DNA from: Halorubrum yunnanense
GTDB lineage: Archaea > Halobacteriota > Halobacteria > Halobacteriales > Haloferacaceae
NCBI RefSeq assembly: GCF_026586675.1
Contig: NZ_JAODIX010000030.1
Coordinates: 174,203-222,676, forward strand
Length of the DNA stretch: 48,474 nucleotides
Direction: 5' to 3'
Of this stretch, positions 1,227 through 11,580 are shown piece by piece. The notes beneath the pieces are model-generated. The model saw nothing but the letters and a program-made list of their open reading frames with translations. It was not told where the DNA came from and did no database searches. The position numbers were made by a program, and so were the translations under genes. Each line of letters starts with the position of its first letter. Positions within the stretch are counted from its first letter, which is position 1.

Positions 1227-1328
1227 AGACCGTGGTAAGTCATCACACATTAAATGCCTTTCCGTGCCGGGACTCCTCGCCGAACCCGAAAGCCGAGTTT
1301 TTTAGCCGGGTGCCGCCGAAAGACGGGT
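1227..1328. promoter_or_regulatory. Divergent promoter region, polB / small-gene operon
   Basis: A 102-base intergenic region between two outward starts. Rightward, an AT-rich gttttttag (about 1294-1302) lies about 30 bases before the polB ATG. Leftward, cattta (1249-1254) lies about 26 bases before the ATG at 1226. Both spacings fit leaderless transcription. No inverted repeat was noticed. Confidence 0.55.
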
Positions 1329-4300
1329 ATGACTCAGTCGGGGCTGTCGGACTTCTCGTCGACCGGTGACGCGGACGACGGGAGAGACGGCGGCACAGAA
1401 ACCGAACGGGAGGACCTCGCCGCGCAGGAGGCGGCCGTCGTCGCCGGCGGCGGACGGGGGCGGGTCAGCGACGTCGTCGACGTCGACGAGGCGAAGTTCC
1501 CGGAGTCGACCGGGACCGTCGACCTGATGATCACCCAGATCGACTACGCCGTCGAGGGGTACGGCAGCGACGAGTACCCCGTCGTCCACGTGTTCGGCCG
1601 GCGGCCGGCGGAGAACGTCGAAGACGCCGAACACGACGTCGTCGAACACCTCCGCGTGCTCGGCGTCGAGCCGTACTTCTACGTCCCCACGGCCGACCTC
1701 GACCGCGACCCGGTCGAGGCGTACGACGTGGTGATCGGGACTCGAGAGGGAGGTCCGGACGGCGAGCCGTACGAGAGCATCCGCGGCGAGCCGCTCACCC
1801 GGATCGTCACCCGAACGCCCCGCGACGTGGGGAACATCCGCGACGACTTCGAGACGAGCTTCGAGGCGGACATCCTCTTCCCGAACCGCTTCCTGATCGA
1901 CAACGGGATCAACGGCGGAATCCGCGTCGAGGAGCGGCGCCTCGACGACGGGGAGGGAACGATACAGGTCCACGAGGGGATGCTCGAACCGACCGAGGTC
2001 GACGCCGAGATGCGCGTGAACACCTTCGACATCGAGGTGGACGACCGGCGCGGCTTCCCCGAGGACGGCGAGGAGCCGATCATCTGTCTCACCAGTCACG
2101 ACTCCTACGACGACGAGTACGTCGTCTGGCTGTACGACGCCCCCGAGGCCGAGGTGCCGCCGCCCGAGGACCTGCCCGACTACGAAGGGATCGTGGGGGA
2201 CGCCGAGGAGCTCGATTTTAGGGTGCGCACGTTCGAGGAGGAGGCCGCGATGCTCGACGCGTTCGTCGAGTACATCCAGGAAACCGACGTAGATCTTATG
2301 ACGGGGTGGAATTTCGAAGATTTCGACGCACCGTACCTCCTCGATCGGATGGAGTTACTCGACGACGGGAGTCAGTACGATCTCTCCGTCGACCGGCTCT
2401 CCCGCATCGGTGAGGTGTGGCGCTCCGGCTGGGGCGGCCCGGACGTGAAGGGGCGGGTCGTCTTCGACCTGCTGTACGCCTACAAGCGGACGATGTTCAC
2501 CGAGCTGGAGTCGTACCGGCTCGACGCCGTCGGGGAGCGCGAGCTCGGCGTCGGCAAGGAGCGCTACACGGGCGACATCGGCGACCTCTGGGAGCAGGAC
2601 CCCGAGCGCTTGCTGGAGTACAGCATCCGCGACGTGGAGCTGTGCGTCGAGATCGACCGGAAGCAGGACGTGATCGCCTTCTGGGACGAGGTGCGCACCT
2701 TCGTCGGCTGCAAGATCGAGGACGCGCCGACCCCCGGCGACACCGTCGACATGTACGTCCTCCACAAGGCGTTCGGGAAGTTCGCGCTCCCCACCAAGGG
2801 CCAACAGGAGTCCGAGGAGTTCGAGGGTGGCGCCGTCTTCGACCCCATCACCGGCGTCAAGGAGATGGTAACTGTCCAAGACTTGAAAAGTCTCTACCCG
2901 ATGTGCATGGTAACCATCAACGCCGGCCCGGAGACGAAAGTCGACCCCGCGGAGTACGACGACGAGACGTACGTCGCGCCCAACGGGACGCACTTCCGGA
3001 AGGAGCCGGACGGAATCATGCGCGAGATGGTCGACGAACTGCTCTCCGAACGCGAGGAGAAGAAGGCGCTCCGGAACGACCACGACCCCGGCACCGAGCC
3101 GTACGAGCAGTACGACCGTCAGCAGGGAGCTGTCAAGGTTATTATGAACTGCTTCACGCCGGACACGGACGTGTTGACGCCGACCGGGGTGCGGTCGATC
3201 ACAGGGCTCGACGTCGGCGACGAGGTGTACTCGCTCGATCCGGACTCCGAGGAGATGGAAGTCAAGCCCGTCGAGGAGACCCACGCGTATCCGGAATACC
3301 GCGGCAAACTCGTCGACATCGAGACGTCGGAGACCGACTTCCGCGTGACGCCGAATCACCGGATGCTCGTCCGGAAAAACGAGACGAACGGGATCACCGA
3401 AGACGGGTACAGTTTCGTCGAGGCTGGTGATCTCGACCGCGCAACGAACTACGAACTTCCACACGATTGGGACGGTCCCGCAGGGGAGCGGATCGATGAA
3501 GTAGACTTAACGGAGCTGATCGACGGGGAGTACGAGGTGTGGGTCCGTCCGGAAGTCCACGGTCACACGTTCACCGCCGAGCTCGGCTGGACGCCGCGGC
3601 GCGTCCCGAAGGCTGATCTCGGGCAGACCGGTTACGTCTTCACCGCCGAGGAGTTTGAGGAACACCGCGAGTACGTCGAGTCGGTGTGTGAGACGAGCTA
3701 CGTCCACCGCGAGTCCGACCGGAAGTGGGTTCCACGGACCTACGACGGCGACGACTTCCTCGAACTGCTCGCGTGGTACGTCACAGAAGGAAACGTGTAC
3801 ACGTCCAAGGAGAAGCGGTTCGGAGACAATTTTCGTGGCTCCGCGACGACGGTGAAGATCGCACAGGACGCCGTCGCCGACGGCGGCGCTTCCGACCACG
3901 AGACGATCGGCCAACTACTCGATCGGATGGGGATACACTACTACGTCGACGACCGAAGCTATCAGTTCACGTCGGAGTTGCTCGGGAATCTCCTTCGAGA
4001 CCGCTGTGGTGACGGGAGCTTCGAGAAGCGGATCCCGGATCGGGTCTTCCAGGCGAACGCGACACAGAAGCGCGCGTTCTTGGAAACGCTGATCGACGGC
4101 GACGGAGACCGACAGACCGGATCGTGGCGGTACACGACGTCGAGCGAGGAGTTACGGGACGACGTGCTTCGACTGTGTGCCCACCTCGGGCTCACCGCGA
4201 ACTATAACCACGACAGCGGGAGCTGGCGGATTTACGTCACGGAAGACGCGAAGAACACGCTTCGGATGCATCGGAGCGGAACGCGGAGCGAGGCCGAAGA

Positions 4301-6677
4301 CGGAGTCTACTGCGTGACCGTCGAAGATAATCACACGCTCCTCGCGGGACGGAACGGGAAGTTCCAGTTTGTCGGGCAATCACTCTACGGCGTTACGGGG
4401 TGGGATCGGTTCCGGCTCTACGACAAAGAGGGCGCAGCAGCCGTCACAGCGACCGGTCGAGAAGTTATCGACTTCACCGAGGAGGCCGCAAATGAGCTCG
4501 GCCACGACGTTGCGTACGGCGACAGCGTCACGGGCGACAGACCCGTCGTCGTGCGCGATCCCGAGGGTATCGTTCGAATCTTGCCGATTGCCGATCTCTT
4601 CGAGCGCTCGGACGCGACTGCGAGCGGGGATCTGATTGTTACCGCCGACGGCGGGCCTGTCGCTTCGGTGTCGGTCGAGAAGGAACGGGGTCGCGTTGAC
4701 GGGTGGAAGGCGCTTTCGGTGACCGAGGACGGTGAACCGGAGTGGCAGCCGATCGAGCAGGTGATCCGGCACGAGACCGATGAGCCGGTCGTCAACCTCC
4801 AGCATAAGTTCGGTGAGTCCACGACGACCAGAGACCATTCGTACGTCGTCGAAGAAAACGGCAGCCTCGTCGAAACGAAGCCGGAAGACGTCGAAGAGCC
4901 GCTTCGGGTACCCGGTCTCCCCGAGGTCGAAACGGTGGAGAGGATCGACGTGTACGACGTGTTAGAGGGGTACACGCGCGAGTACGAAGACGGTCGAAGC
5001 GTCGGCAGCGAGAACGCGGAGACGAAGGTGAAGCGAGTCCACGCAAACGACGACTGGGTCTGGTTCGGCCACAGGCATCACGATGCGATAGAGAAGAGCA
5101 TCAAGGTACAGCGATACGTCGATTTGGACTCCGAAGACGGACGGGCGCTCGTGCGGTTGCTCGGCGCGTACGTTACTGAGGGGAGTGCCTCGACGATCGA
5201 AACGACCGATTCCAAGTTCGGCGCGAGTATCGCCGAATCCAGAACGGAGTGGCTGGAAGGGCTTCGCGAGGACTACCAGCGTCTGTTTGACGGGGCGACC
5301 GCGGGCGTCATCACGTCGGACACGTCCGACGAGCGGACCGTCGAGTACGGAACCGACGACGGGGATCAGTCGGTAACGTACGACGACGGCACCCACAAGC
5401 TCCAGATGATGAACGAACTCTCTGCGGTGTTCTTCCGTGAGTTCGCTGGGCAAACGTCGCGTGGGAAGCGTATTCCGGGGTTCGTGTTCAATCTCCCCGA
5501 AGATCTCCAACAGCTCTTCGTCGACGTACTCGTAGAGGGCGACGGCTCACGCGAATTCCCACGGTACTCGGCCGAGTACTGCGAGCGAAACTTCGACTTC
5601 GAGACGACGAGCCGAGAACTCGCGGCGGGCCTCTCGACGCTTCTCACCCAGCGCGGGGAGAAACACTCGCTGAAATACAGGGAAGGCAAAGAAAGCTACA
5701 CGATTCGAACGTGTGATTACTACCGGAGCGGACGGGATCCAGTAGTCGAGGAGGTGGATCACGACGGGTACGTGTACGATCTCAGCGTCGCAGAGAACGA
5801 GAACTTCGTCGACGGCGTCGGCGGAGTCGTTCTCCACAACACCGATTCAGTCATGCTGTCCCTCGGCCAAGAGGCGGACAAAGAGGAGGCGATCGAGACC
5901 TCCTTCGAGATAGAGGACCACATCAACGAGCGCTACGACGACTTCGCGCGCGACGAGCTCAACGCCGAGTTCCACCGCTTCCAGATCGAGTTCGAGAAGC
6001 TCTATCGGCGGTTCTTCCAGGCCGGCAAAAAGAAGCGGTACGCCGGCCACATTATCTGGAAAGAGGGCAAGGACGTCGACGATATCGACATCACCGGCTT
6101 CGAGTACAAGCGCTCCGACATCGCCGGCATCACGAAGGAGGTCCAGCAGAACGTCATCGAGACGATCGTCACGGGCGACGACATCGACGAGGACATGGAA
6201 GAGGTGAAGGCGTACCTCGTCGACGTCATTGCGCGCGTGCTCGACGGCGACATGGATCTCGACGAGATCGGGATCCCGGGCGGGATCGGCAAGAAGCTGG
6301 ACGCCTACGAGACCCCGACCGCGCAGGTCCGGGGCGCGAAGTACGCGAACCTCCTGCTCGGGACCAACTTCGGGAGCGGGTCGAAGCCGAAGCGGCTGTA
6401 CATCGAGAAGGTCCACCCCGACTTCTGGACACGGATGGAAGAAGAGGAGGGGCTCGACCCGCAGCGGGACCACCTGTACGGGGAGTTCAAGCGCGATCCG
6501 GACGTGATCTGCTTCGAGTACGCCGACCAAGTCCCCGACGAGTTCGCGGTCGACTGGGAGAAGATGCTGGACAAGACGCTGAAAGGCCCCATCGAGCGCG
6601 TGATCGAGGCGCTCGGGATGTCTTGGGAGGAAGTCAAGACCGGACAGGAACAGACTGGACTCGGTTCGTTTATGTAA
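1329..6677 (+). CDS. polB: Family B DNA polymerase (PolB) with two inteins
   Basis: Replicative/repair DNA polymerase of the archaeal B family. The precursor is 1782 aa and would splice to about 933 aa. Start is the ATG at 1329 (MTQSGLSDF); the 25 upstream in-frame residues lack protein character and hold the promoter. Visible motifs: exonuclease I (NTFDIEVD, D234/E236), exonuclease II (GWNFEDFDAPYL, about 326-337), exonuclease III (YSIRDVE, Y431/D435), polymerase motif A (DLKSLYP, D518), motif B (VKVIMN/SLYG, split by intein 1), motif C (YGD/TDSV, split by intein 2). The C-terminus QTGLGSFM is a PCNA-binding PIP box. The intein site in motif A, used in some archaea, is empty. Residues 1-60 are a low-complexity acidic leader typical of haloarchaea. 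The gene faces three small leftward genes and is followed by sufC on the same strand but probably in a separate transcript. Confidence 0.97.
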   Translation: MTQSGLSDFSSTGDADDGRDGGTETEREDLAAQEAAVVAGGGRGRVSDVVDVDEAKFPESTGTVDLMITQIDYAVEGYGSDEYPVVHVFGRRPAENVEDAEHDVVEHLRVLGVEPYFYVPTADLDRDPVEAYDVVIGTREGGPDGEPYESIRGEPLTRIVTRTPRDVGNIRDDFETSFEADILFPNRFLIDNGINGGIRVEERRLDDGEGTIQVHEGMLEPTEVDAEMRVNTFDIEVDDRRGFPEDGEEPIICLTSHDSYDDEYVVWLYDAPEAEVPPPEDLPDYEGIVGDAEELDFRVRTFEEEAAMLDAFVEYIQETDVDLMTGWNFEDFDAPYLLDRMELLDDGSQYDLSVDRLSRIGEVWRSGWGGPDVKGRVVFDLLYAYKRTMFTELESYRLDAVGERELGVGKERYTGDIGDLWEQDPERLLEYSIRDVELCVEIDRKQDVIAFWDEVRTFVGCKIEDAPTPGDTVDMYVLHKAFGKFALPTKGQQESEEFEGGAVFDPITGVKEMVTVQDLKSLYPMCMVTINAGPETKVDPAEYDDETYVAPNGTHFRKEPDGIMREMVDELLSEREEKKALRNDHDPGTEPYEQYDRQQGAVKVIMNCFTPDTDVLTPTGVRSITGLDVGDEVYSLDPDSEEMEVKPVEETHAYPEYRGKLVDIETSETDFRVTPNHRMLVRKNETNGITEDGYSFVEAGDLDRATNYELPHDWDGPAGERIDEVDLTELIDGEYEVWVRPEVHGHTFTAELGWTPRRVPKADLGQTGYVFTAEEFEEHREYVESVCETSYVHRESDRKWVPRTYDGDDFLELLAWYVTEGNVYTSKEKRFGDNFRGSATTVKIAQDAVADGGASDHETIGQLLDRMGIHYYVDDRSYQFTSELLGNLLRDRCGDGSFEKRIPDRVFQANATQKRAFLETLIDGDGDRQTGSWRYTTSSEELRDDVLRLCAHLGLTANYNHDSGSWRIYVTEDAKNTLRMHRSGTRSEAEDGVYCVTVEDNHTLLAGRNGKFQFVGQSLYGVTGWDRFRLYDKEGAAAVTATGREVIDFTEEAANELGHDVAYGDSVTGDRPVVVRDPEGIVRILPIADLFERSDATASGDLIVTADGGPVASVSVEKERGRVDGWKALSVTEDGEPEWQPIEQVIRHETDEPVVNLQHKFGESTTTRDHSYVVEENGSLVETKPEDVEEPLRVPGLPEVETVERIDVYDVLEGYTREYEDGRSVGSENAETKVKRVHANDDWVWFGHRHHDAIEKSIKVQRYVDLDSEDGRALVRLLGAYVTEGSASTIETTDSKFGASIAESRTEWLEGLREDYQRLFDGATAGVITSDTSDERTVEYGTDDGDQSVTYDDGTHKLQMMNELSAVFFREFAGQTSRGKRIPGFVFNLPEDLQQLFVDVLVEGDGSREFPRYSAEYCERNFDFETTSRELAAGLSTLLTQRGEKHSLKYREGKESYTIRTCDYYRSGRDPVVEEVDHDGYVYDLSVAENENFVDGVGGVVLHNTDSVMLSLGQEADKEEAIETSFEIEDHINERYDDFARDELNAEFHRFQIEFEKLYRRFFQAGKKKRYAGHIIWKEGKDVDDIDITGFEYKRSDIAGITKEVQQNVIETIVTGDDIDEDMEEVKAYLVDVIARVLDGDMDLDEIGIPGGIGKKLDAYETPTAQVRGAKYANLLLGTNFGSGSKPKRLYIEKVHPDFWTRMEEEEGLDPQRDHLYGEFKRDPDVICFEYADQVPDEFAVDWEKMLDKTLKGPIERVIEALGMSWEEVKTGQEQTGLGSFM
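3150..4379 (+). other. Intein 1 of PolB (motif B site), with LAGLIDADG endonuclease
   Basis: In-frame insert of 410 aa, residues 608-1017, between N607 and S1018 of motif B (IMN/SLYG). It starts with CFTPDTDVLTPTGV (block A). Block B is at RVTPNHRML. Two dodecapeptide-like motifs, LLAWYVTEGNV and FLETLIDGDGDR, mark a LAGLIDADG homing endonuclease that looks intact. The C-terminal part has VYCVTVEDNHTLLAGRNG (block F) and ends in FQFVGQ before Ser. The last residue is Gln instead of the usual Asn, and the penultimate is Gly instead of His. Gln at this position is known in a minority of inteins and can still splice. Boundaries were set by restoring the uninterrupted motif B. Confidence 0.93.
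4524..5840 (+). other. Intein 2 of PolB (motif C site), with LAGLIDADG endonuclease
   Basis: In-frame insert of 439 aa, residues 1066-1504, between D1065 and T1505, splitting the catalytic motif YGD/TDS. It begins with Ser (SVTGDRPVVVRDPEG), so the first N-S (N-O) shift uses serine, and ends in the canonical VVLHN before Thr. Block B is TTTRDHSYVV. Endonuclease motifs are LLGAYVTEGSA and FVDVLVEGDGSR. Block F is GYVYDLSVAENENFVDGVG. Codon use is looser and more AT-tolerant than in the flanking exteins (for example ggaaggcaaagaaagctac near 5690), in line with horizontal spread of the element. Confidence 0.93.
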
Positions 6678-6812: not shown

Positions 6813-7760
6813 ATGGCTACTCTCGAAATCAACGATCTTCACGCACGAGTGGCGGAAGAGGGCGGCGAACGCATTCTGCAGGGAGTCGACCTGACCGTCG
6901 AGTCCGGAGACATCCACGCGCTGATGGGCCCGAACGGCTCCGGGAAGTCGACGCTCGCGAAGGTCATCGCCGGCCACCCGGCGTACGATGTCACCGGCGG
7001 GGAGATCCTCCTCCACCTCGACGAGGCGGAGGTCGCCGACGTCGACGTCGACCTCGACGACGAAGACTACCACTGGGAGCTGCTGGAGCTGGAGCCGAAT
7101 GAGCGCGCCGCGCTCGGCATCTTCCTGGGCTTCCAGTACCCGGCCGAGATCGAAGGGGTCACCATGACGAACTTCCTCCGACAGGCGCTCAACGCGAAGG
7201 CGGACGAGCGCGAGGAGCTGTTCGAGGACGAGGACGCCGAGGAGGCCGACGCGGACGACGACGCCGAGGAGGCCGACACGGACGACGACGACGAGGGGTA
7301 CGAGACGTCCCCGATGGAGGGTGCCGCCGACGACGGCGAAATCGGCGTCGCCGAGTTCCAGCAGATCCTCTCGGAGAAGATGGAGCTGCTCGACATGGAC
7401 GAGAAGTTCATGCAGCGCTACCTCAACGCCGGTTTCTCCGGCGGCGAGAAGAAACAGAACGAGGTCTTGCAGGCCGCGATGTTAGAGCCCGCGGTCGCAG
7501 TGCTCGACGAGATCGACTCCGGGCTCGACATCGACCGGCTCCAGGACGTCGCGAAGGGGATCAACGCGCTCCGCGACGAGCAGGGCACAGGCGTCCTCCA
7601 GATCACCCACTACCAGCGCATCCTCGACTATGTCGAGCCCGACCACGTCCACGTGATGCTCGACGGCGAAGTCGTCAAGAGCGGCGGCGCGGAGCTCGCC
7701 GAGAAGCTCGAGGACAAGGGGTACGACTGGGTCCGCGAGGACGCGTTCGAGGCGGCGTAA
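6813..7760 (+). CDS. sufC: Fe-S cluster assembly ATPase SufC
   Basis: ABC-type ATPase subunit of the cytosolic SufBCD scaffold that builds Fe-S clusters. 315 aa, longer than bacterial SufC (about 250 aa). Walker A is GPNGSGKST (39-47), the Q-loop lies in [11 protein letters not shown] (Q108), the ABC signature is SGGEKKQNE (about 209-217), Walker B with the catalytic Glu is [12 protein letters not shown] (228-239), and the H-loop is ITHYQRIL. The extra length is largely an acidic insertion at about 138-175, between the Q-loop region and the signature. First gene of sufC-sufB-sufD; sufB follows after 52 bases. The leader 6678-6812 has no obvious metal operator of the type seen at 20-30 kb. Confidence 0.97.
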
Positions 7761-7812: not shown

Positions 7813-9243
7813 ATGAGTTCACAACAAGACGACCTCAAAGAGACAGACACCGAGGCCCGCTTCGAGTTCAAGAAAGAGGAGAAGTCCGCTTTCCAGACCG
7901 AGAAGGGCCTCACCGAGGAGACGGTCCGCGTCATCTCGGAGGACAAGGACGAACCGGAGTGGATGCTGGAGCGCCGCCTGCGCGCGCTCGAGCAGTTCCA
8001 GGAGATGCCGATGCCGACCGACTGGCCCGGGCAGCCGGACCTGAGCGAGGTCGACGTCGACGAGATCATCCCGTACATCCGACCCGACGTCGACGTCCGC
8101 GCCGGCGTCGACGACTGGACGGAGCTGCCGGACAATATCAAAGACACCTTCGACAAGCTGGGCATCCCGGAGGCCGAGAAGAACGCGCTCTCCGGCGTCG
8201 GCGCCCAGTACGAGTCGGAGGTCGTCTACCAGAACATGCAGGAGCGGTGGGAGGAGAAGGGCGTCGTCTTCTGTAACATGGACGAGGCCGTTCAGGAGCA
8301 CGAAGAGCTCGTCCGCGAGCACTTCATGACGAAGTGCGTCCCGCCGAGCGACAACAAGTTCGCTGCGCTTCACGGCGCCATCTGGTCTGGCGGCTCGTTC
8401 GTCTACGTGCCGGAGAACACCACCGTCGACATGCCGGTGCAGGCGTACTTCCGGATGAACTCCGAGGGGATGGGCCAGTTCGAGCACACGCTCATCATCG
8501 CCGAGGAGGGCTCGGAGGTCCACTACATCGAGGGCTGTTCCGCGCCGAAGTACTCGAAGTTCAACCTCCACTGTGGCGGCGTCGAAGTGTTCGTCGACGA
8601 GGACGCCCACGTCCAGTACTCGACCGTCCAGAACTGGTCGAAGAACACGTACAACCTGAACACCAAGCGCGCCATCGCCGAGAAAGGCGGGCGCATGGAG
8701 TGGATCTCGGGGTCGATGGGGTCGAAGGCGACGATGCTGTACCCCTCGACGATCCTGAAGGGGCGCGGCGCCTCCGACAACCACATCACCATCGCCTTCG
8801 CGGGCGAGGGCCAAGACATCGACACGGGCGCGAAGGTGTACCACAACGCGCCGGACACCAAGTCGACCGTCGAGTCGAAGTCGATCGCGAAGGACGGCGG
8901 CCGCACGAACTACCGCGGGCTCGTCCACATCGCTGACGGCGCCGAGAACTCCTCGACCGCCGTCGAGTGCGACGCGCTGATGTTCGATAACGAGTCGACG
9001 TCGGACACGATGCCGTACATGGAGATCAACGAGTCGAAGGTCGACGTCGCCCACGAGGCGACCGTCGGGAAGATCGGCGACGAGGACATCTTCTACCTGC
9101 AGTCGCGCGGCCTCGACGACGACGACGCCAAGCAGATGATCGTTTCGGGCTTCATCGAGCCCATCACGGAGGAGCTGCCCATCGAGTACGCCGTCGAGTT
9201 GAACCGACTCGTCGAGCTCGAGATGGAGGGCTCGCTCGGATAA
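7813..9243 (+). CDS. sufB: Fe-S cluster assembly protein SufB
   Basis: 476 aa, the expected size for SufB. It forms the scaffold on which the nascent Fe-S cluster is assembled, paired with SufD and powered by SufC. Family signatures are visible: EPEWMLERRLRALEQF near the N-terminus, VVFCNMDEAVQEH, KCVPPSDNKFAALHGAIWSG, the long beta-helix core (HYIEGCSAPKYSKFNLHCGG, with cysteines of the cluster-binding region) and the C-terminal FDNESTSDTMPYMEINES and ATVGKIGDEDIFYLQSRGL. The ATG at 7813 follows an AT-rich leader. The stop (TAA 9241-9243) is one base before the sufD ATG, so SufB and SufD are translationally linked. Confidence 0.97.
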   Translation: MSSQQDDLKETDTEARFEFKKEEKSAFQTEKGLTEETVRVISEDKDEPEWMLERRLRALEQFQEMPMPTDWPGQPDLSEVDVDEIIPYIRPDVDVRAGVDDWTELPDNIKDTFDKLGIPEAEKNALSGVGAQYESEVVYQNMQERWEEKGVVFCNMDEAVQEHEELVREHFMTKCVPPSDNKFAALHGAIWSGGSFVYVPENTTVDMPVQAYFRMNSEGMGQFEHTLIIAEEGSEVHYIEGCSAPKYSKFNLHCGGVEVFVDEDAHVQYSTVQNWSKNTYNLNTKRAIAEKGGRMEWISGSMGSKATMLYPSTILKGRGASDNHITIAFAGEGQDIDTGAKVYHNAPDTKSTVESKSIAKDGGRTNYRGLVHIADGAENSSTAVECDALMFDNESTSDTMPYMEINESKVDVAHEATVGKIGDEDIFYLQSRGLDDDDAKQMIVSGFIEPITEELPIEYAVELNRLVELEMEGSLG

Positions 9244-9244
9244 C

Positions 9245-10459
9245 ATGAGCACGCAAGCAATCGAGAGCCTCTCAGAGGACACGGTACGACGCATCGCCGA
9301 CGAACGCGACGAGCCCGAGTGGCTCCTCGAGACCCGTCTGAACGCGCTCGCCGCGCTGGAGACGGCCGATCTGCCCGACGTCATCCAGACCCCCGGACGC
9401 CGCTGGACCGACCTGGAGGCCCTCGACTTCGAGGCGCTCGTCGACCCGCTGAACCAGTCCGACGCCACGGAGCGGACGGCCGGCGACGACGAGGTCGTCG
9501 TCCTCCCCTTCACCGAGGCGTTCGACGAGTACGGCGACGTCATCGAGGCGAACTTCGGCTCGGTGCTCGATCCCGAGCACAACTACCTCACGGCCCTGTC
9601 GGTCGCGCTGTTTACCACCGGCACGTTCGTCTACGTCCCCGAGGGCGTCGACGTCGAGGACGTGACGGTCCGCGCGGAGATGAACTCCCGCTCGCTGTTC
9701 AGCCAGACACTCGTCGTCGCCGAGGAGTCGTCGTCAGTGACGATCCTCGAGTCGATCGAGTCGGGCGATAGCGAGGTCGACGGCGACCGGTACTTCTCGA
9801 ACCTCGTCGAGATCGCCGCGGGCGAGAACGCGAACGTCCAGTTCGGCTCGCTCCAGAACCTCGACGACGACTCGTACACCTACTCGCTGAAGCGCGGCGT
9901 GACCGACGCGTACGCGACGGTCGACTGGATCGAGAGCAACTTCGGCTCGAAGCTCACGCGCTCCGATGTCGAGACCGAACTCGAAGGCGACGGCTCCGAG
10001 AGCCAGATCGTCGGGACGTTCTTCGGCACCGAAGACCAGCACTTCGACATCAACGCCCGCATCTGGCACCGCGCCGAGCACACGACGGCCGACCTCGTCA
10101 CGCGCGGGGTGCTCGACGACGTGGCTCGCTCGGTCTACGAGGGTGTTCAGGACGTCGGCGAGGACGCGTGGAACACGTCCAGCTACCAGCGTGAGAACAC
10201 GCTGATGCTGTCGGACGACGCCGAGGCCGACGCGTCGCCGAAGCTGATCATCCACAACCACGACACCGAGGCCTCCCACTCCGCGACAGTCGGGCAGGTC
10301 GACGCCGAGGACCTGTTCTACCTGGAAAGCCGCACGATCGGCCCCCGCACGGCGCGGAACATGCTCGTCGAGGGCTTCTTCGTGCCCGTGTTAGAGGAGA
10401 TCGCGGTCGACGAGTTCCGCGACGACGTCGAGGAGCTCGTTCTCCAGCGGCTCCAGTAA
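9245..10459 (+). CDS. sufD: Fe-S cluster assembly protein SufD
   Basis: 404-aa paralogue of SufB that completes the SufBC2D complex. It keeps the N-terminal EPEWLLETRLNALAALE and the C-terminal beta-helix and helical end (HSATVGQVDAEDLFYLESR, ARNMLVEGFFVPVLEEI). It has fewer cysteines than SufB, as expected for the non-scaffold partner. It starts one base after the sufB stop. The gene ends 116 bases before the mini-ORF and ferritin-like gene, which have their own TATA-like box at about 10543-10550, so the operon probably stops here. Confidence 0.96.
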   Translation: MSTQAIESLSEDTVRRIADERDEPEWLLETRLNALAALETADLPDVIQTPGRRWTDLEALDFEALVDPLNQSDATERTAGDDEVVVLPFTEAFDEYGDVIEANFGSVLDPEHNYLTALSVALFTTGTFVYVPEGVDVEDVTVRAEMNSRSLFSQTLVVAEESSSVTILESIESGDSEVDGDRYFSNLVEIAAGENANVQFGSLQNLDDDSYTYSLKRGVTDAYATVDWIESNFGSKLTRSDVETELEGDGSESQIVGTFFGTEDQHFDINARIWHRAEHTTADLVTRGVLDDVARSVYEGVQDVGEDAWNTSSYQRENTLMLSDDAEADASPKLIIHNHDTEASHSATVGQVDAEDLFYLESRTIGPRTARNMLVEGFFVPVLEEIAVDEFRDDVEELVLQRLQ

Positions 10460-10575
10460 GCGGCGGCGTCGAGTCCGCTTCGGAGGGCTGACCGTCGGAT
10501 CTCTCGTTTCTCCGCGGCGACGAGTCCCGGCTGGAGGGGAACTTCTTAAGTCGGACTACGCCCGAGTGCGACTGT

Positions 10576-10617
10576 ATGCGAACGGGCGTATCGAGCGGTG
10601 ACGGGTGGTGGCCGTGA
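10576..10617 (+). CDS. Possible leaderless 13-aa leader ORF before the ferritin-like gene
   Basis: ATG at 10576, 13 codons (MRTGVSSGDGWWP), TGA at 10615-10617. A TATA-like cttaag (10545-10550) lies about 28 bases upstream, the distance seen at leaderless genes in this window. The TGA overlaps a GTG at 10614 (GTGA), the start I chose for the ferritin-like gene. Seen: the ATG, the spacing and the overlap. Inferred: that it is translated and couples translation to the downstream cistron. It could be chance. Confidence 0.4.
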   Translation: MRTGVSSGDGWWP

Positions 10618-11099
10618 GCGTGAGCCAGCGGATCGGCTCCGACGACCAGCTCGCTCGGCTGTTACAGATCGGGATCGTGTTAGAGGAGGTAGTCGAGGCG
10701 CGAGCCCATCACCACTACCGGGGCGTCGACGCCGAACTCGACGCCGAGATCGAGGCGCTGCTCGCGGACGCGGCCGAGGAGTCGGCCGACCACCGCGAGC
10801 GGTTGGAGTCTCTCATCGCCGGGCTCGGGGTCGACAGCGTCCCCTTCGACGAGATCGAGTCGCTGGTCGACGCCCGCTACGGGCGGACCAAGCCCGAGGA
10901 CTTCGATGGGATCTTGTACGACCAGCTGTGTAACGAGGAGACGGCCTACAAGTTCTACGACGACCTCGTCGAGGCCATTGAGGCGTCGGACGCGGAGTTT
11001 TCGGTCGACCGAGAGCGCCTCCTGGAGACGTTGCGGACGATCCGCGAGGAGGAGGCCGAGGGCGTCAGCGAGGTCACGGAAGTCATGGAGCGACGATGA
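10614..11099 (+). CDS. Ferritin-like (four-helix) protein
   Basis: About 161 aa, all-helical and acidic. Regularly spaced carboxylate/His clusters typical of ferritin-like diiron proteins are visible: LEEVVEARAHHHY, AAEESADHRERL, NEETAYKFYDDL and IREEEAEGVSEV, one per predicted helix. This suggests a metal-binding ferritin/rubrerythrin-type bundle, although I cannot name the subfamily. There is no ATG start. Candidate GTGs are at 10605, 10608, 10614 and 10620; 10614 is favoured because it forms a GTGA overlap with the upstream mini-ORF. Position between sufBCD and a DtxR-family regulator supports a role in iron handling (inference). Its stop overlaps another ATG (ATGA, 11096-11099). Confidence 0.75.
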   Translation: MSVSQRIGSDDQLARLLQIGIVLEEVVEARAHHHYRGVDAELDAEIEALLADAAEESADHRERLESLIAGLGVDSVPFDEIESLVDARYGRTKPEDFDGILYDQLCNEETAYKFYDDLVEAIEASDAEFSVDRERLLETLRTIREEEAEGVSEVTEVMERR

Positions 11100-11146
11100 A
11101 CCGGCGTATCGAGCCGACGACGAGACCCGACGGAGGAGAGCCGTGA
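11096..11146 (+). CDS. Possible 16-aa bridging ORF between ferritin-like and DtxR genes
   Basis: ATG at 11096 overlaps the stop of the ferritin-like gene (ATGA). It runs 16 codons (MNRRIEPTTRPDGGEP) and its TGA (11144-11146) overlaps the regulator's GTG (11143-11145). It therefore tiles the gap exactly, which is suggestive of coupled translation. However, the regulator also has a good Shine-Dalgarno sequence, so this ORF may not be needed. Low confidence that a peptide is made. Confidence 0.3.
   Translation: MNRRIEPTTRPDGGEP
11132..11140 (+). promoter_or_regulatory. Shine-Dalgarno of the DtxR-family regulator
   Basis: GGAGGAGA directly upstream of the GTG at 11143, complementary to the 3' end of 16S rRNA. 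It decides the GTG start of an internal operon gene, which is notable in a genome where most starts lack such a sequence. Confidence 0.65.
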
Positions 11147-11580
11147 ACACCGCAGACCAGTACCTCAAGACGATATACGTCGTACAGGAGCAGGAGGACG
11201 GCCCGGCCTCAACGGGATCGATAGCCGACGCCCTCGACGTGAGCCCGGCGAGCGCGAACGAGATGATCGGCAAGCTGGAGGAGCGCGGGCTCGCCGAACA
11301 CGAGAAGTACAAGGGGGTCCGGCTTACCGACGACGGGATCATTCGGGCGCGGGACGCGCTCCAGACGTACTGTATCATCGAGCGCTTCCTCGCGAACGTG
11401 CTCGGCGTCGAGGAGTTCCGCGAGGAGGCCCGCGAGCTGGAGGCCGTCATCGACGACACCGTCGCCGACCGACTCGACACGATCATCGACCGGCAGCCGG
11501 AGTGTCCGGACTGCTTCGACCCCGAGACCGACGCCTGCGCGTGCCTGGAAGTCGCGATGGCGCCGGTCGAGTCGGAGTAA
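11143..11580 (+). CDS. DtxR/MntR-family metal-dependent repressor, atypical ligands
   Basis: 145 aa. The N-terminal winged helix (residues 1-65: STGSIADALDVSPASANEMIGKLEERG, here split as STGSIADALDVS and PASANEMIGKLEERG, then EKYKGVRLTDDG) is clearly DtxR/SirR type. The dimerisation domain follows (about 70-115). Aligned by eye with MntR/DtxR, the usual metal-ligand histidines are missing: the RRH position is TYC (75-77) and LEH is LEA (99-101). Instead there are cysteines C77, C121, C124, C132 and C134, the last four in a CxxC-x7-CxC cluster near the C-terminus. There is no SH3-like third domain. Such regulators repress iron or manganese genes when metal-bound. The five palindromes at 20-30 kb are plausible targets, but that link is inference. 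It is downstream of a ferritin-like gene and sufBCD. Confidence 0.88.
   Translation: MNTADQYLKTIYVVQEQEDGPASTGSIADALDVSPASANEMIGKLEERGLAEHEKYKGVRLTDDGIIRARDALQTYCIIERFLANVLGVEEFREEARELEAVIDDTVADRLDTIIDRQPECPDCFDPETDACACLEVAMAPVESE

Follow-up and report, generated by a model that had tools for sequence, protein, structure and literature searches.

How does a regulator read iron once the metal site of its family has gone from it? TroR is reportedly the primary regulator of iron homeostasis in a model archaeon, Haloferax volcanii, yet its sequence is without the classical iron site, and the manner in which it reads iron is therefore at issue. We addressed this question through the orthologue in a 48,474-nucleotide stretch of Halorubrum yunnanense DNA (hereafter the window). 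The best explanation, in which we infer both the metal and the binding, is an iron-dependent center of four cysteines whose occupancy would set DNA binding; we give this reading a probability of roughly one half.

The regulator and its neighborhood

The regulator and the genes before it occupy the following positions of the window.

6813–7760, + strand: sufC (from translation and Pfam)
7813–9243, + strand: sufB (assigned by its translation and by its location, flanked by sufC and sufD)
9245–10459, + strand: sufD, with a SufBD core domain (Pfam)
10535–10552, + strand: promoter-like element GRGGGAACNNCTTAAGTC, conserved, upstream of the ferritin-like gene
10605–11099, + strand: gene for a putative ferritin-like (rubrerythrin-like) protein of 164 aa (weak Pfam match, below the curated cut-off)
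11143–11580, + strand: troR orthologue, a DtxR-family regulator of 145 aa with a winged helix-turn-helix (wHTH) and a dimerization domain, without an SH3/FeoA domain

The reading frame at 11143–11580 starts with GTG, stops with TAA, and encodes a DtxR-family protein, as had originally been predicted. Both Pfam domains of the family exceed their curated cut-offs: PF01325 (Fe_dep_repress, N-terminal) scores 68.1 bits against 26 (E 7.9e-19), and PF02742 (Fe_dep_repr_C, C-terminal) scores 40.8 bits against 27 (E 2.3e-10). An AF2 model based on 30 orthologues has the two-domain DtxR fold at a mean pLDDT of 89, and its best Foldseek matches among solved structures are DR2539, DtxR, IdeR, ScaR, SloR, and MntR (E 2e-8 to 1e-6). 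The Pfam scan gave no homology to the Rrf2/IscR family, the Rrf2 match (E 0.011) being below the cut-off and confined to the HTH part.

In Hfx. volcanii, the DtxR-family protein TroR is HVO_0863 (PMC11349517), cited as the primary iron regulator of that species by way of the title of Martinez Pastor et al. 2024 (PMC11349517). A primer pair flanking HVO_0863 has been published in a paper on the same organism (PMC6801745). In Hfx. prahovense and Hfx. gibbonsii (L121/L134), a site 559 bp upstream of the orthologue fits the forward primer with 0 mismatches, and three other Haloferax species have a site that differs from it at one or two bases; the reverse primer has no placement downstream of the orthologue in other Haloferax species and is not conserved there. 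Given the forward-primer match, the same gene order, and the single supported clade (96/90) that the TroR orthologues form in our tree, the window regulator is, judged by its sequence, the orthologue of TroR (HVO_0863). The proteins of the Haloferax species compared are 75–80% identical to it, lie likewise behind ferritin-like and suf genes, and in the aligned sequences are identical to it at the key positions, with no difference seen. The gene and its fold family were, in this sense, already known. TroR was found at 67–95% identity in 142 of the 145 genomes sampled from the class, although two of these matches are only partial; for the remaining three, all that was found is a related protein of 47–51% identity.

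Few other candidates for iron sensing exist in the window genome. Fur had no match, the three Rrf2 matches cover little beyond the HTH part (one of them below the cut-off), and the one other DtxR protein has Mn-type ligands; neither a second short DtxR nor an IscR-like Rrf2 protein was recognizable. TroR is therefore the obvious iron regulator of this genome.

The gene order sufC-sufB-sufD-ferritin-like-regulator confirms that the regulator sits behind the suf genes and a ferritin-like gene. Among 86 loci of at least 11 kb, the ferritin-like gene is beside troR in every one (86/86), and sufB/sufD lie upstream within the stretch in 73; in the other 13, no suf operon was found within the stretch read. 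The firm partner of troR is thus the ferritin-like gene, and a direct suf link is weak, looser than the original prediction held, because suf was not found in the stretch in those 13 loci and there is no common promoter element. The element GRGGGAACNNCTTAAGTC, whose sequence looks like a BRE/TATA promoter, occurs once in the genome when up to one mismatch is allowed; neither sufC nor sufB has its core upstream. The regions before the ferritin-like gene, sufC, and sufB showed no conserved palindrome. A common TroR–suf regulon found no support in these regions, where ferritin-like-troR and suf share no operator or promoter element.

The rubrerythrin-like assignment is weak and draws on the orthologues, 12 of 16 of which match the Rubrerythrin Pfam family at E ≤ 0.1 (best 1.5e-4); the window protein does so at E 0.026, below the curated cut-off. 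A profile of the ferritin-like protein at 10605–11099 also gave faint matches to PFC_05175 (5n5e, E 0.12) and to a virus-like particle protein (2e0z, E 0.88), both of which we take to be encapsulated-ferritin proteins of Pyrococcus. Farther upstream, positions 1254–6677 of the window hold a 1807-aa ORF whose translation looks like a family B DNA polymerase, with two putative intein-type insertions beginning near CFTPDTDVLTPTG and DSVTGDRPVVVRDPEG.

Metal ligands and cysteines

A profile HMM of 30 orthologues could be aligned with ScaR and SloR across residues 4–123. The classical ligands D7, H76, E99, E102, and H103 of these proteins correspond to Q6, Y76, R97, E100, and A101 in TroR. All orthologues keep one of the five ligands of the primary site, E100, and both histidines are gone. 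Q6, Y76, and E100 are invariant in 144 orthologous loci, which comprise 114 distinct sequences and are the sample for all conservation counts below. The translation has T75-Y76-C77 and L99-E100-A101 where the original prediction had read RRH as replaced by TYC (75–77) and LEH by LEA (99–101), and the profile alignment extends that reading to the loss of four of the five ligands. No alternative set of residues in the alignment restores them. TroR shares the two-domain fold with DtxR and IdeR (iron) and with MntR (manganese), but their ligands M10/C102/E105/H106 or D8/E99/E102/H103 are all replaced in TroR except for a single Glu, and, unlike these proteins, TroR has no SH3/FeoA domain and has a four-cysteine site instead.

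The cysteines in question are encoded as follows.

11371–11373, + strand: codon of C77, invariant (144/144), on a helix, adjacent to the H76-type ligand that was lost and a single turn ahead of E80
11503–11514, + strand: codons of C121-P-D-C124, both cysteines invariant; C121 aligns with Cys123 of ScaR/SloR/MtsR
11536–11538, + strand: codon of C132, invariant (144/144)
11542–11544, + strand: codon of C134, named in the original prediction; not conserved (75/144)

C77, C121, C124, and C132 are each cysteine in 144/144 loci, and all cysteines outside these four vary. The CxxC-x7-CxC motif first proposed thus stands only in part: C121, C124, C132, and C134 are present in the translation at the residues it named, and the first three are conserved in all orthologues, but C134 is cysteine in only 75/144, which rules it out as a ligand, and C77 had been overlooked, seen only within TYC. 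The conserved motif is C77 ... C121-P-x-C124-F-x6-C132, in which P122 and F125 are likewise invariant. Chance is excluded as the source of this invariance, on the sequences compared, because cysteine makes up 0.6% of residues in seven neighboring window proteins and yet fills these four positions in all 114 distinct orthologues. The cysteines also occur together. In 86 haloarchaeal DtxR-family sequences, which are related by descent and do not represent 86 independent events, C77 is accompanied by three or more cysteines in the C-terminal stretch in 43, both features are missing from 43, and 0 are mixed.

The streptococcal Mn regulators ScaR, SloR, and MtsR have a metal site made of His76-Glu80-Cys123-His125 (PMC9253540; PMC4805248). 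In the profile alignment, the TroR residues C121, D123, and E80 pair with Cys123, His125, and Glu80, respectively; ScaR chain positions are one lower than the published numbering, presumably because the first Met is missing. C77 directly follows the His76 position and precedes E80 by three residues (one helical turn) on helix 63–86 of the AF2 model, and the streptococcal site as a whole aligns with Y76/C77, E80, C121, and D123/C124. By this alignment, the TroR cysteines occupy the place that the second metal site has in ScaR/SloR/MtsR. Those proteins differ from TroR in keeping another metal site, in having an FeoA domain, and in binding Mn. The C-terminal tail is ordered in both confident AF2 models, one of the TroR type and one of a type with both sites (see below), with short strands or bridges at ∼125–126 and 131–132 (DSSP). 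These strands would place C124 and C132 together.

Possible roles of the cysteine site

We propose that C77, from the long helix of the dimerization domain, and C121, C124, and C132, from the ordered C-terminal hairpin, would form one site that replaces the decayed Fe/Mn site. That the four bind a single center is highly probable; that this center senses iron has about even odds. If iron dependent, it would more plausibly be an Fe-S cluster than mononuclear Fe. We prefer a cluster over bare Fe because a mononuclear Cys4 site would favor zinc, while TroR is reported to control iron genes. Occupancy of the center would set DNA binding by TroR, so that uptake of iron would be repressed, and its storage promoted, when the cells are replete with it. 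The original prediction had likewise invoked thiols in place of the classical site. Its first half, a replacing cysteine site, is well supported by the lost ligands and the invariant cysteines (both outcomes that it had named as refuting, usual ligands supplied by other residues and cysteines varying among orthologues, were looked for, and neither was seen for C77 and three of its four cysteines), whereas the sensing of iron or of a cluster is what we infer from the published role of TroR, the adjoining ferritin-like gene, the nearness of suf in most genomes, and the absence of other sensor families.

Known cluster sensors offer a comparison. SufR and IscR are wHTH repressors that hold a cluster on thiols and have a genomic link to suf, and TroR would be alike if its Cys4 site holds one; however, the sensor part is not homologous, and the cysteine spacing is different. 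The four invariant cysteines of the TroR sequence are compatible with an Fe-S cluster but are not proof of one. If they do hold a cluster, TroR would be an Fe-S sensor built on the DtxR fold, and its likeness to IscR and SufR would be convergent. We found no sensor of that description in searchable papers, and the limited collection of literature that we searched held no DtxR protein in which four working cysteines replace the classical site.

The main rival, to which we give a probability of about one third, is structural: the four cysteines may bind a zinc that fixes the C-terminal hairpin to the dimerization helix. TroR would then answer iron by other means (through a partner, through control of its own abundance, or through other residues) or bind DNA constitutively. 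CPxC motifs and hairpins are typical of structural zinc sites, which speaks for this explanation. Yet the position of the cysteines matches a sensing, not a structural, site in the streptococcal homologues (PMC9253540). Moreover, no orthologue retains the classical site, yet the protein is kept in 142/145 genomes of the class, and a protein reported as the main iron regulator would be left with no other obvious set of iron ligands.

A thiol redox switch, in which disulfides report oxidative stress and not metal, is improbable. CxxC motifs can form disulfides, and iron and oxidative stress are linked in haloarchaea. But a CxxC disulfide would need neither C77 nor C132, whereas the four cysteines, of which one is 44 residues distant, never vary and occur as a block. 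We give very little credence to a classical site rearranged from invariant acids and H53 (E40, E54, E95, E100, and D104, with E80) beside incidental cysteines, since although E80 and E100 survive from the two ancestral sites, four of the five first-site ligands have become Q, Y, R, and A, both histidines included, and the only cysteines that never vary are C77, C121, C124, and C132.

Relatives and the history of the site

The proposed iron-dependent Cys4 center can also be viewed against the other DtxR proteins of haloarchaea. One kind, which includes the second DtxR of the window genome (L001), consists of long proteins with Mn-type ligands and without C77 or the tail cysteines. Another (L148–L155) consists of short proteins that combine a full DtxR-type site (M, KHC, FHEEACRLEH) with the same four cysteines. 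These two-site proteins resemble TroR in their cysteines and length but, unlike TroR, retain the equivalents of M10, H79, E83, H98, C102, E105, and H106. In one genome without TroR proper (G074, 98% complete), the resemblance includes the neighboring gene: the gene of a two-site protein is immediately adjacent to one for a homologue of the ferritin-like protein (E 4e-16; both genes at L150:101–1226). In the tree, which was rooted solely for display, a 99/97 branch sets TroR apart together with a single TroR-like paralogue and a cysteine-free group; the two-site group makes up another clade (98/91).

The occupation of the same locus by either a two-site or a cysteine-only version points to loss of the classical site with retention of the cysteines in TroR. 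From these sequences, TroR seems to have lost the classical site while preserving the Cys4 site, with the two-site group as the intermediate. The fuller scenario, in which an Fe-S cluster or thiolate iron at the Cys4 site took over from the classical Fe(II) site and the two-site intermediate survives in haloarchaea, is tentative, and we hold it somewhat less likely than not to be right in all its parts. If true, the series from classical site to both sites to Cys4 only would show one site of a metalloregulator replacing another. Cysteines near the second site are, by sequence comparison, widespread in archaea of the phylum: the corresponding stretch is often CPDGxPI...CC beside a complete classical site, and C77 was seen only in haloarchaea.

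The same relatives lend something to a structural zinc. In the two-site subfamily, sensing could fall to the complete DtxR site, leaving the four cysteines a structural part, and the cysteine-free clade, sister to TroR in the tree and with no visible metal site, lost both kinds of residue together. This last group comprises short, ligand-free DtxR-like proteins (L157, L158, L159, L213–L217, L219–L222, and others), many of which start with MSGAxQYLLAVY.

Several other loci deserve mention. In-frame TGA codons in some paralogues of 50% identity were rejected as a feature, as they are the proteins' own stop codons overrun by the alignment. A TroR-like paralogue of 52% identity (L147:4961–7472) has three ferritin/Dps-like genes in tandem nearby (two of which were examined with Pfam), an arrangement that supports a link of the TroR subfamily with iron storage. 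A second cysteine-bearing group (L223, L247/L258, L251/L260, L252/L259) has lost the classical ligands and has WR[LRF]C at 77 with a CxxxC...C tail; nearby are a FecCD-type permease and a putative heavy-metal exporter in one locus (L258), a Nitro_FeMo-Co protein in another (L260), and a GDT1 cation antiporter in a third (L259). Finally, three short DtxR proteins from other archaea of the phylum (L203, L204, L205) have partly degraded classical ligands and a CPKC...CC tail without C77. Their sequences possibly represent an independent variant of the cysteine site, with a cysteine from the preceding helix (HICQ).
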